This document shows positions 3,345 to 37,184 of a stretch of 64,000 bases of DNA, piece by piece; position 1 is the stretch's first letter, and the number at the start of each line of letters is the position of its first letter. The translations under genes were made by a program, and so were the position numbers. The notes under the pieces were generated by a model. That model saw only the letters and a program-made list of their open reading frames with translations. It had not been told where the DNA came from and did no database searches. Origin of the DNA: an uncultured Spirochaetaceae bacterium (GTDB taxonomy: Bacteria > Spirochaetota > Spirochaetia > Sphaerochaetales > Sphaerochaetaceae); NCBI GenBank assembly GCA_944392985.1, contig CALXYL010000001.1, positions 62,001-126,000 of the forward strand, in the 5' to 3' direction.

Positions 3345-6300
3345 ATGATCATTGAATTCACGCTTTCCGGCTATAAAGCATTCCGGATCCCGTCAACGCT
3401 TTCGTTCCGCGCAGAGTCGATTACGGAGAATCAGGAAAGCCTGATTGATGGCACCTATCTTCCTGTAGTTGCGATCTTCGGACCGAACGGCAGTGGAAAG
3501 AGCACGATGATCGAGGCCATCAACGTACTTGTGGAGTATCTTTCCAGGCCTCTTGTCTCATGTTCAGGAGGCTTTGAGCCTTTTGCTCCTCCATATGACA
3601 TGACTGAAGGCCCCTCATCCTTCAGCATTGCATTCACCTCTCCAGCAGCATCGTATCGTTACTCTATCTCATTCTCCCCGGATTCGATAAGCTCCGAGCG
3701 TTTAGAGCGGCTTGCCTCCAGTGAAGGAAGGGCTGTGCAGCTCTTCTCGAGGGAGAATGGAGAGGCTGTTCTGCATGGATCATTGAGGCACCTCCTCGCA
3801 GGTGATCTCCCATCGGATGTTCCACTGCTGACGCTTCTGCGATCAGAGCACCCTGACTCCGACGTGATAAGGGATGTCTCTGAATCCCTTTCAGAGGGTT
3901 TCATCCGCGCTGGAAGCATTCCCTACGAAGCGCTTTCAATTCACGAAAGGACATTGATGCTCGGTATGCTTGAGGAGATGGATACCGGGATAACCGCACT
4001 TGATGGGGATTCTGTCCTCTATGGAACGCATCGCCTCCCGCTTTCAGAGGAAGGGGATGGTATAAAGGAGCTTATCGTATTTCTTCCATCCCTTGTAAGG
4101 GCGCTTTCAGAGGGTAGGGTGCTCCTTTCCGACAGCCTCTGTCCCCACCTCCATCCTGCACTCAGGGCGTATGTCGTATCCCTCTTCACATCCCATGGAT
4201 CGAACAGGCATGGGGCAATGCTCGCCGCTTCGTTTTCAGATCCATTCCTTATGGATATAAGGCTTCTCAGGAGGGATGGGATCTACCTCGCATCCAGATC
4301 TTCCGCAAGCGCTCAGCTTACACGGCTTTCAGATGCAAAGGACAGGAACGGGCAGAGCATACGCAAGGATGCAAGGCTCATGAGAAGCTACATTGATGGG
4401 GAGTATGGTGCTTATCCATCTATCAGGAGGGTGCTCAGATGGGATGAGGAAAAGGATGGATCCACGCTGGAGAAGCGACGGCTCTTCAGCATCAACAACA
4501 GGCGTTATCTTGGAAACAAGTTCCGGCTCACGCGCTTTATACGCGAGATTGCTGACAGATACTGTCCCGATGCAGCCTCTTTCGCTGATATCTTCTCCGG
4601 AACCGGTTCCGTTTCCTATGCATTCCGTGACAGGAAGCTGATCCTCAACGATTTCCTCTACTCGAACTACCTTTCCAATCTTGCATGGTTCTCGCCCGAG
4701 CCTTTCGACAAGGTGAAGGTCATGGCGTTGATCGATGGATACAACTGCCTTGACACATCGGAGGACAACTATATGTCGCTGAATTTCTCCGATACTTATT
4801 TCTCCGCGGCCAACTGCCGCCGGATCGGGGCTATCAGGGAGGATATAGAGAGGCAGTACCGCCAAGGCTGCATCAATATGAGGGAGAAGGCCATAATTGT
4901 CACATCACTACTTTATGCGATGGATAGGATCGCAGCGACATGCGGCCATTATGATGCCTGGAGGCAGGGAGCGGACCTCAGTGCCTCTCTGGAGCTCCGC
5001 ATGCTCGATGTGGATATGTCGAACAATGAGGGAAATGAGATATTCAGCGAGGACACGAATGCGCTTGTGCGCCATATAAGCGCGGACATCGTCTATATCG
5101 ATCCTCCATACAACTCGCGCCAGTATTCAGATGCATACCATCTCCTTGAGAATGTTGCCCGATGGGAGAAGCCTGAAGTGAAGGGGAAGGCAAGGAAGAT
5201 GGATCGCTCTGGCATCAAGAGCGACTATTCGACACAGCGGGCCGAAAAGGCTTTCTCCGATCTGATCAGCCATATTGATGCGTCATATATCCTTCTTTCC
5301 TACAACAATATGCAGGAGAAGGGAGACAGCCGTTCCAATGCCAAGATCACTGACAGCACGATCATGTCCGTCCTCTCAAAGCGAGGAGAGGTTTCGGTGT
5401 TCTCAACAGAGCACAGGGCCTTCTCTGCCGGGAAGAGCCATATCAGCGGAAATGAGGAGCGTATATTCCTCTGCCGCATAAAGCAGAGGAAGGCGGCAAG
5501 GGAGGGGTTTGTGGAGTCTCCGCTCAACTATGTCGGAGGAAAGGGGAGGATCCTCAAGGATCTGCTTGATGCATTCCCACGTGAGATAGACACATTCATC
5601 GATCTCTTCGCAGGAGGTTGCACAGTCGGTACCAATGCTCCATGCCGGCGTGTGGTTTTCAATGACAGCGATGCCCGTCTTGTCTCCCTCCTTCGTGAGA
5701 TGCGGCGTTCAGACAAGGATGTGTTCATATCGGATATACGCTCGGTGATTCGCCGCTATGCTCTCTCTCAGAGCGATGAATATGGCTATGCGTACTATGG
5801 TGCGGATTCATCAGGAGGGCTTGGAAAGGTCAACAAGGATGCATATATGCACCTTAGGAATGACTTCAACACCATGTCCATGGATGAGCATATGAGGGCT
5901 GTGATGCTCTATGTCCTGATAGTCTACGGCTTCAACAACCAGATCAGATTCAATGATGCCGGTGCGTTCAACCTGCCTGTCGGGAAGCGTGATTTCAACC
6001 GACGCATGCAGGAGAAGCTGTCGCTCTTCATTGACAGGATCAAAGCGCTTGATGCAGTGTTCATGGATTCGGATTTCCGCACTGTGCCCATCCCCGATGG
6101 TTCCTTCGTCTATGCCGATCCACCATATCTTGTAACCACTGCGACATACAATGAGAAGCATGGCTGGACGGAAAGCGACGAGACATCCCTTCATGAGCTG
6201 CTTGAGAGCCTTACGGAGCGTGGTATCCGCTTTGCTCTCTCGAATACGCTTCGGAGCAGGGGAAAGGAGAATTCATTCCTCATTGGATGGCTTGAGAAGC

Positions 6301-6407
6301 ATCCCGAATACAGGGTGCTCCATCTTGATAGGAGCTATGCCAACTCAAGCTACCATATCAAGGACAGGGAAGCGGAATCAGATGAGGTTCTGATCCTCAA
6401 CTACTGA
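3345..6407 (+). CDS. Fusion of RloA/AAA_15-like ATPase with two adenine-N6 DNA methyltransferase domains
   Basis: One open frame of 1020 residues holds three domains joined at natural boundaries. Residues 1 to about 375 match the RloA/AAA_15 ATPase layout: Walker A GPNGSGKS at 46-53, a LHP-containing Walker B region near 258-270, an LRRDGIYL strand, and the typical YIDGEYGAYP ending. The Walker B is unusual: D263 is followed by S264 instead of glutamate, and the usual switch histidine is not seen. Residues about 384-715 form an M.FokI-type methyltransferase (RRYLGNK at 386-392, DPPYNSRQY from D586). Residues about 722-1020 form a Dam/D12-type methyltransferase (NYVGGKG from N728, DPPY at 925-928). 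M.FokI, also with two such domains, methylates both strands of an asymmetric site, so this protein may do the same; its target is unknown. No endonuclease gene is next to it. Its last 11 bases overlap the convergent flavoprotein gene. Confidence 0.88.
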   Translation: MIIEFTLSGYKAFRIPSTLSFRAESITENQESLIDGTYLPVVAIFGPNGSGKSTMIEAINVLVEYLSRPLVSCSGGFEPFAPPYDMTEGPSSFSIAFTSPAASYRYSISFSPDSISSERLERLASSEGRAVQLFSRENGEAVLHGSLRHLLAGDLPSDVPLLTLLRSEHPDSDVIRDVSESLSEGFIRAGSIPYEALSIHERTLMLGMLEEMDTGITALDGDSVLYGTHRLPLSEEGDGIKELIVFLPSLVRALSEGRVLLSDSLCPHLHPALRAYVVSLFTSHGSNRHGAMLAASFSDPFLMDIRLLRRDGIYLASRSSASAQLTRLSDAKDRNGQSIRKDARLMRSYIDGEYGAYPSIRRVLRWDEEKDGSTLEKRRLFSINNRRYLGNKFRLTRFIREIADRYCPDAASFADIFSGTGSVSYAFRDRKLILNDFLYSNYLSNLAWFSPEPFDKVKVMALIDGYNCLDTSEDNYMSLNFSDTYFSAANCRRIGAIREDIERQYRQGCINMREKAIIVTSLLYAMDRIAATCGHYDAWRQGADLSASLELRMLDVDMSNNEGNEIFSEDTNALVRHISADIVYIDPPYNSRQYSDAYHLLENVARWEKPEVKGKARKMDRSGIKSDYSTQRAEKAFSDLISHIDASYILLSYNNMQEKGDSRSNAKITDSTIMSVLSKRGEVSVFSTEHRAFSAGKSHISGNEERIFLCRIKQRKAAREGFVESPLNYVGGKGRILKDLLDAFPREIDTFIDLFAGGCTVGTNAPCRRVVFNDSDARLVSLLREMRRSDKDVFISDIRSVIRRYALSQSDEYGYAYYGADSSGGLGKVNKDAYMHLRNDFNTMSMDEHMRAVMLYVLIVYGFNNQIRFNDAGAFNLPVGKRDFNRRMQEKLSLFIDRIKALDAVFMDSDFRTVPIPDGSFVYADPPYLVTTATYNEKHGWTESDETSLHELLESLTERGIRFALSNTLRSRGKENSFLIGWLEKHPEYRVLHLDRSYANSSYHIKDREAESDEVLILNY

Positions 6408-36808: not shown

Positions 36809-37173
36809 GGGGGTGTTCTGGTTTCGACTGGCTTTGCCATGCCGTAGACTGCGGATCAAGAGCTGACTTGTAAAACCGGCACCAAAAATTAAATGCAAAG
36901 AAAGAAGACGAGTTCGTCTCTGACGAAGCATTTGCTCTTGCTGCTTAATCAGTTTTGAGCGGGATGCACCCTGTTAGGTTCCTGGCATGATGCGTCCTTT
37001 ACCTTAGGGGACTTGCTGCTTTCCTTCTCGCCGGGGAGGGCAGGACACTCAGGCGATGCTGCATCTGGACGCCGGTCCCGCTGCCGAAGGATGAGCAAGA
37101 CTGAACCGGGACTATATCCGTAGACGTCTATGGGTGGACTGTCAGGACGGGAGTTCGAGTCTCCCCACCTCCA
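36809..37173 (+). ncRNA. ssrA: tmRNA (ssrA)
   Basis: A 365-nt transfer-messenger RNA that rescues stalled ribosomes. The 5' end GGGGGTG pairs with CACCTCC at 37166-37172 (one G-U) to form the acceptor stem, and the TGTTCTGGTTTCGACTGG start and the T-arm (GGGAG, loop TTCGAGT, CTCCC at 37149-37165) match known tmRNAs. CCA is not encoded after A37173. The tag reading frame runs from GCA at 36895 to TAA at 36946-36948 and encodes AKKEDEFVSDEAFALAA. The LAA ending is the usual proteolysis signal, but 17 codons is longer than many tags. The TetR gene starts 12 nt after the 3' end, and smpB lies just beyond it. Confidence 0.95.
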
Positions 37174-37184
37174 GAGAAGGGATT

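Follow-up and report, generated by a model that had tools for sequence, protein, structure and literature searches.

The 64,000-nucleotide stretch analysed here (the window), from an uncultured gut Spirochaetaceae bacterium of a genus near Ca. Ornithospirochaeta, contains a gene that raises a simple question: what might a protein do that joins an RloA-like ATPase and two DNA adenine methyltransferases in one chain, and where did its parts come from? An initial annotation, made from the letters alone, had placed all three domains in a continuous 1020-residue frame. Our analysis bears this out at positions 3345–6407, with the following features.

3345..6407, + strand: complete fusion gene (1020 aa, ATG-started), degenerate RloA/AbiLi-type ATPase plus double m6A methyltransferase
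3345..4439, + strand: ABC-type ATPase domain of the AbiLi/RloA family, residues 1–365, with a Rad50/SMC-head-like fold (PADLOC, Pfam and structure model)
3480..3506, + strand: Walker A GPNGSGKST, residues 46–54, largely retained (orthologue alignment)
4119..4136, + strand: degenerate Walker B VLLSDS, residues 259–264, catalytic Glu replaced by Ser (orthologues compared with RloA relatives)
4230..4241, + strand: degenerate H-loop SFSD, residues 296–299, His substituted (orthologue alignment)
4389..4418, + strand: RloA C-terminal motif YxxGxYGAxP, here YIDGEYGAYP, residues 349–358
4440..4484, + strand: flexible linker of variable sequence joining the ATPase to the first methylase, residues 366–380 (identity, pLDDT)
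4485..5480, + strand: first adenine methyltransferase domain, residues 381–712, with DIFSGTG at 415–421 and DPPY at 586–589 (PADLOC)
5505..6404, + strand: second, Dam-like adenine methyltransferase domain, residues 721–1020, with DPPY at 925–928 (TIGR00571, T4 Dam fold)

Domain organization of the fusion

PADLOC assigns residues 1–372 to AbiLi (1e-51) and residues 382–1020 to its Type II double-methylase model (2.5e-216). The MTase_II model PDLC03373 matches the first methylase domain at 1e-106, and TIGR00571 (NCBIfam) matches the second at 5e-49. In Pfam, AAA_21 covers residues 42–287 (8.5e-12) and MethyltransfD12 covers two stretches, the better one being residues 729–981 (2.6e-63). The chain contains two D12-class adenine methylase domains with intact catalytic motifs, and the DIFSGTG and DPPY motifs are invariant across all 15 orthologues.

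The domain junctions, expected near residues 375 and 715, appear in the AlphaFold model as stretches with pLDDT below 50 at residues 357–378 and 714–720, and the linker at residues 366–380 has a mean identity of 26% among orthologues. In 9 of the 15 orthologues the stretch from residue 340 to residue 400 contains no start codon (ATG, GTG or TTG), which leaves the methylases of these proteins with no independent start at the junction. A promoter scan upstream of the fusion gene found nothing. At the other end, 11 bases at the stops (window 6397–6407) are shared between the fusion gene and the gene that converges on it from downstream; the overlap is repeated in several orthologues, though their neighbour is a histidine phosphatase, not GltD.

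The methylase half is assigned to the AlwI-type family

All 16 double-methylase loci examined outside the genus have an AlwI-family endonuclease adjoining or just downstream. They comprise Mitsuokella, a gut phage contig, four other Spirochaetota genomes (G058, G373, G217 and G611), seven viral contigs and three plasmids; G611, from the host's own family, shows the classic order, in which AlwI comes after two separate methylases. A tree built on both methylase domains places the fusions in a single clade (100/100) among AlwI-linked sequences, with Mitsuokella nearest to it at modest support (81/86). The predicted structure of the second domain matches T4 Dam (Z 27.9, rmsd 2.2 over 249 residues), while no PDB sequence relative was found for the first. 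By sequence relationship, we assign residues 381–1020 to the double adenine methyltransferase of AlwI-type Type IIS systems.

The genus itself presents a different picture. The AlwI-family endonuclease (PF09491) was detected in none of 48 genus genomes, incomplete bins included, so its absence is not proof; as a positive control, the same search found it in 10 of 13 other genomes. The endonuclease was thus either lost in the genus or never arrived with the methylase.

Two related loci deserve mention on their own. On phage contig MT836408 (L055:4790-6151), the first AlwI-type methylase has at its N-terminus a helix-turn-helix domain that may be a built-in regulator, which indicates that N-terminal additions on AlwI-type methylases are not unique to the fusion. 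On a 242 kb viral contig (L168:4998-7016), no AlwI endonuclease was found next to the double methylase, which may serve the phage as a protective methylase.

Predicted methylation target

A single chain in the published AlwI-type systems contains both methylases, GGATC being the site of one and GATCC that of the other (PMC4081073), and the products of M.AlwI, M.EacI and M.GmeI are GGm6ATC and Gm6ATCC (PMC3526280). Because of these described enzymes and the T4 Dam-like second domain, the target of the fusion is quite probably GGATC/GATCC, with m6A on one strand each. The target is not certain, since an AlwI-family system of Caldicellulosiruptor has the target GCATC (PMC9799307). The literature searched offered nothing usable on the GATC-contact residues of Dam.

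GGATC occurs 1018 times in 224 kb of the host genome against 1065 expected (ratio 0.96). This lack of depletion agrees with no active restriction at GGATC and, together with the endonuclease search, makes the methylase look solitary. The suggestion that the protein may be an orphan modification enzyme thereby gains support. In the same 224 kb sample (G000), CATG (0.67) and GAGTC (0.67) are under-represented relative to maximal-order Markov expectation.

The initial annotation had instead linked the methylases to M.FokI and guessed its site, GGATG, as the target. M.FokI-like enzymes are also double adenine methylases for an asymmetric site, and the likeness is real at that level, as judged from the description of M.FokI only. 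However, the nearest relatives of the fusion are AlwI-linked rather than FokI-linked at every close locus examined, the described fused methylases of that type mark GGATC/GATCC, and the second domain is closest to a GATC enzyme. We therefore rejected the M.FokI assignment, and a GGATG methylase seems hardly credible.

The ATPase half retains its fold and has lost catalytic residues

Residues 1–365 carry both the RloA/AbiLi sequence match and, as had been noticed from the sequence, the YxxGxYGAxP motif that ends this family. The description of the domain as RloA/AAA_15-like holds for the RloA/AbiLi part; AAA_15 itself falls under the family cutoff (E 0.064). Modelled alone, the ATPase domain reaches pLDDT 84 and pTM 0.84, and its fold matches Rad50, SMC heads and the retron/Septu PtuA with Z scores of 15.4 to 19.5, the best (19.5) being Rad50. 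In a tree of ATPase domains, the fused ones group in a single clade that adjoins the genus's accessory RloA proteins.

The complete ABC catalytic set (Walker A, Walker B Glu and H-loop His) is absent from the fusion. None of the 15 orthologues has the Walker B catalytic Glu, the residue after the Walker B Asp position being S, N, G, D or A, and only one (G069) retains the H-loop His, whereas DE and HD, the canonical residues, are present in the accessory RloA proteins of the genus and in the RloA relatives from phages. The Walker A Lys is better kept, in 12 of the 14 orthologues that cover the position; it is changed in G061 and G008, and G061 and G030 are without the Walker B Asp, so ATP binding too may be lost in some orthologues. 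Our results thus argue against hydrolysis-driven control. The proposed ATP-dependent control is not supported in its usual sense, and control may act through ATP binding.

The two halves also differ in pace. Mean pairwise identity is 79% for the methylases and 46% for the ATPase, and approximate dN/dS is 0.065 against 0.22, rough values because dS is saturated; the ATPase domain is evolving about three times faster. Most orthologues are 10–35 residues shorter, chiefly in this domain, and its RRDEIY and YGA motifs are kept. With the frame maintained and dN/dS at this level, the ATPase domain is fast-changing yet constrained, and purifying selection acts on all three domains.

A single conserved chromosomal locus

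The fusion is carried by 15 of the 48 species of the host genus, the window's species included. A search for the same three-domain order thus recovered it in 14 further species, at 60–68% identity to the window's protein and with no internal stop. The same neighbours flank it throughout the carriers, and the same stop-free fusion at the same locus in 15 species is neither chance nor an assembly error, the refutation that had been considered for it. An artefact and a mobile island were both rejected, the latter by the unchanged locus.

The gene block consists of V-ATPase, patatin, ZIP, the fusion, histidine phosphatase or GltD, MATE, Ca-ATPase, ispG and uvrA genes, with local rearrangements. 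In the window, the fusion has patatin, ZIP, GltD, MATE and Ca-ATPase genes around it. The ZIP gene of G061 is relocated, but the fusion there still lies between the V-ATPase genes and MATE. Parts of the block (patatin, ZIP, ispG, uvrA) are present without the fusion in G026, G033 and G062, and in G006 the Ca-ATPase and MATE genes adjoin each other with the fusion absent. In a ZIP-gene tree, the 13 carriers sampled fall within one supported group of 20 species, 7 of which are non-carriers. Together with the fusion-free blocks, this tree is consistent with one gain and some losses; the fusion arose once. It is absent from 33 of the 48 species, near-complete assemblies among them; the genus genomes are metagenome assemblies, and some bins are incomplete.

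Two further observations concern the surroundings. A tmRNA gene lies at window 36809–37176, with the tag AKKEDEFVSDEAFALAA. In G017 (L126:10228-11894), two genes beside a relocated ZIP start like an ATPase and an RloB/Toprim-type protein.

In the genomes sampled outside the genus, 393 from the phylum, 395 from the class and 139 from the family, we found no three-part chain. No phage or plasmid record covers 80% of the fusion protein, and a scan of viral contigs found no relative. A GTDB-wide scan with short exact peptides, which reaches close relatives only, returned the full chain in the genus only, plus a two-domain Mitsuokella relative and one weak partial match. Each part is known by itself, and the genomes and records searched show the combination in this genus only. 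The view that no system with all three parts had been described stands, as no paper on an ATPase–double methylase fusion was found in the literature searched, with subscription journals mostly outside its scope. The fusion is a combination of known parts, real and apparently undescribed.

Comparison with named systems

Like M.AlwI, M.EacI and M.GmeI, compared here by their descriptions, the fusion has two adenine methylase domains in one chain. An AlwI-type endonuclease is encoded alongside those enzymes, and no RloA-like ATPase is described for them, whereas for the fusion no such endonuclease was found and an ATPase is joined in front. The second methylase domain resembles T4 Dam and E. coli Dam, but Dam is a single domain marking both GATC strands and the fusion has two methylase domains.

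With the AbiLi/RloA proteins of AbiL and RloAB, the fusion shares the AbiLi match, the end motif and most of Walker A; it differs in the lost Glu and His, in the attached methylases and in having no adjoining RloB/AbiLii gene. With AriA of PARIS it shares an ABC-type ATPase of the same broad group (the AriA profile matches weakly, E 0.008), but no AriB Toprim nuclease adjoins or is fused to it, the catalytic residues are lost and methylases are attached. For the adjacent genes, our analysis agrees with the earlier view that no endonuclease, RloB or helicase lies nearby.

At another place in the host genome (L035:6492-8397, G000:C5), an RloA gene and an RloB-type gene do stand as a pair, and this paired RloA likewise lacks the H-loop His and, with VIDD at Walker B, the canonical Glu. 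RloB-family genes are present in all 48 genus genomes regardless of the fusion, so their presence is uninformative, and we dropped a fusion–RloB link based on co-occurrence.

A model for the fusion and its alternatives

We then propose that the protein is likely a solitary AlwI-type-derived double methylase whose RloA/AbiLi-derived N-terminal domain is kept as a non-hydrolysing scaffold. The methylase would descend from an AlwI-type Type IIS restriction-modification system and persist without its endonuclease, and the N-terminal domain would have been acquired in one gut spirochaete lineage. Its two methylase domains would place their marks throughout the host genome, at GGATC on one strand and at GATCC on the opposite strand. 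ABC ATPases that have lost the catalytic Glu tend to bind ATP unhydrolysed and dimerise. Most tentatively, and as the weakest step of the model, the ATPase domain of the fusion may likewise bind ATP without turnover and pair with a second copy, and so serve as a scaffold that dimerises or positions the methylases. Such methylation would probably shield the host DNA from AlwI-type systems that enter the cell, or serve as a fixed epigenetic mark.

The ATPase domain could instead be slowly decaying and have no present job: a chance in-frame fusion would have supplied the methylase with a promoter or a start, and the domain would be what is left of it. The lost catalytic residues, the threefold faster divergence and the shortening within this domain would fit such decay. 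We consider it unlikely, because 15 species carry the gene without stop or frameshift, dN/dS is about 0.22 and not near 1, the RRDEIY and YGA motifs are retained and the ABC fold is confidently predicted. It is also tempting to see a Dam- or CcrM-like orphan regulator that acts on replication or gene expression through its marks and is merely tuned by the ATPase; vertical retention at a single locus, the strong purifying selection seen in the methylase domains, the absent endonuclease and the Dam-like second domain all point this way. However, the gene is missing from 33 of 48 species, near-complete assemblies included, and in G006 it has apparently been lost while its neighbours stayed intact. 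Core replication control therefore does not depend on it, which makes such a regulator quite unlikely.

Alternatively, the protein could be a self-contained defence or toxin-neutralising system, in which the RloA-like domain works with the genomic RloB nuclease and the methylase distinguishes self from foreign DNA. In AbiL-like systems, RloB/OLD-Toprim partners are neutralised by AAA proteins of this kind (PMC10440598), AriB is held by AriA in PARIS (PMC12409363), and an RloB-type gene is at hand in every genus genome. But RloB is there with or without the fusion, the host RloB adjoins its own RloA, and the fusion locus is nuclease-free, amid housekeeping genes and outside any defence island; we regard this explanation as very unlikely. 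Another, distinctly unlikely reading is that an ATP-locked RloA-type dimer switches the methylase by nucleotide state or a phage signal, possibly through contact with the genomic RloB. If it were true, modification status and toxin-type defence would be coupled in one chain.

Read as a solitary methylase with a retained scaffold, the fusion would illustrate a route by which a mobile restriction-modification methylase becomes a settled, solitary host enzyme. It suggests that a defence ATPase fold may be retained without its catalytic residues as part of another enzyme, and it offers a natural test of what RloA-type domains may do beyond ATP hydrolysis. It also proposes a checkable methylation mark, GGATC, for an uncultured gut lineage.
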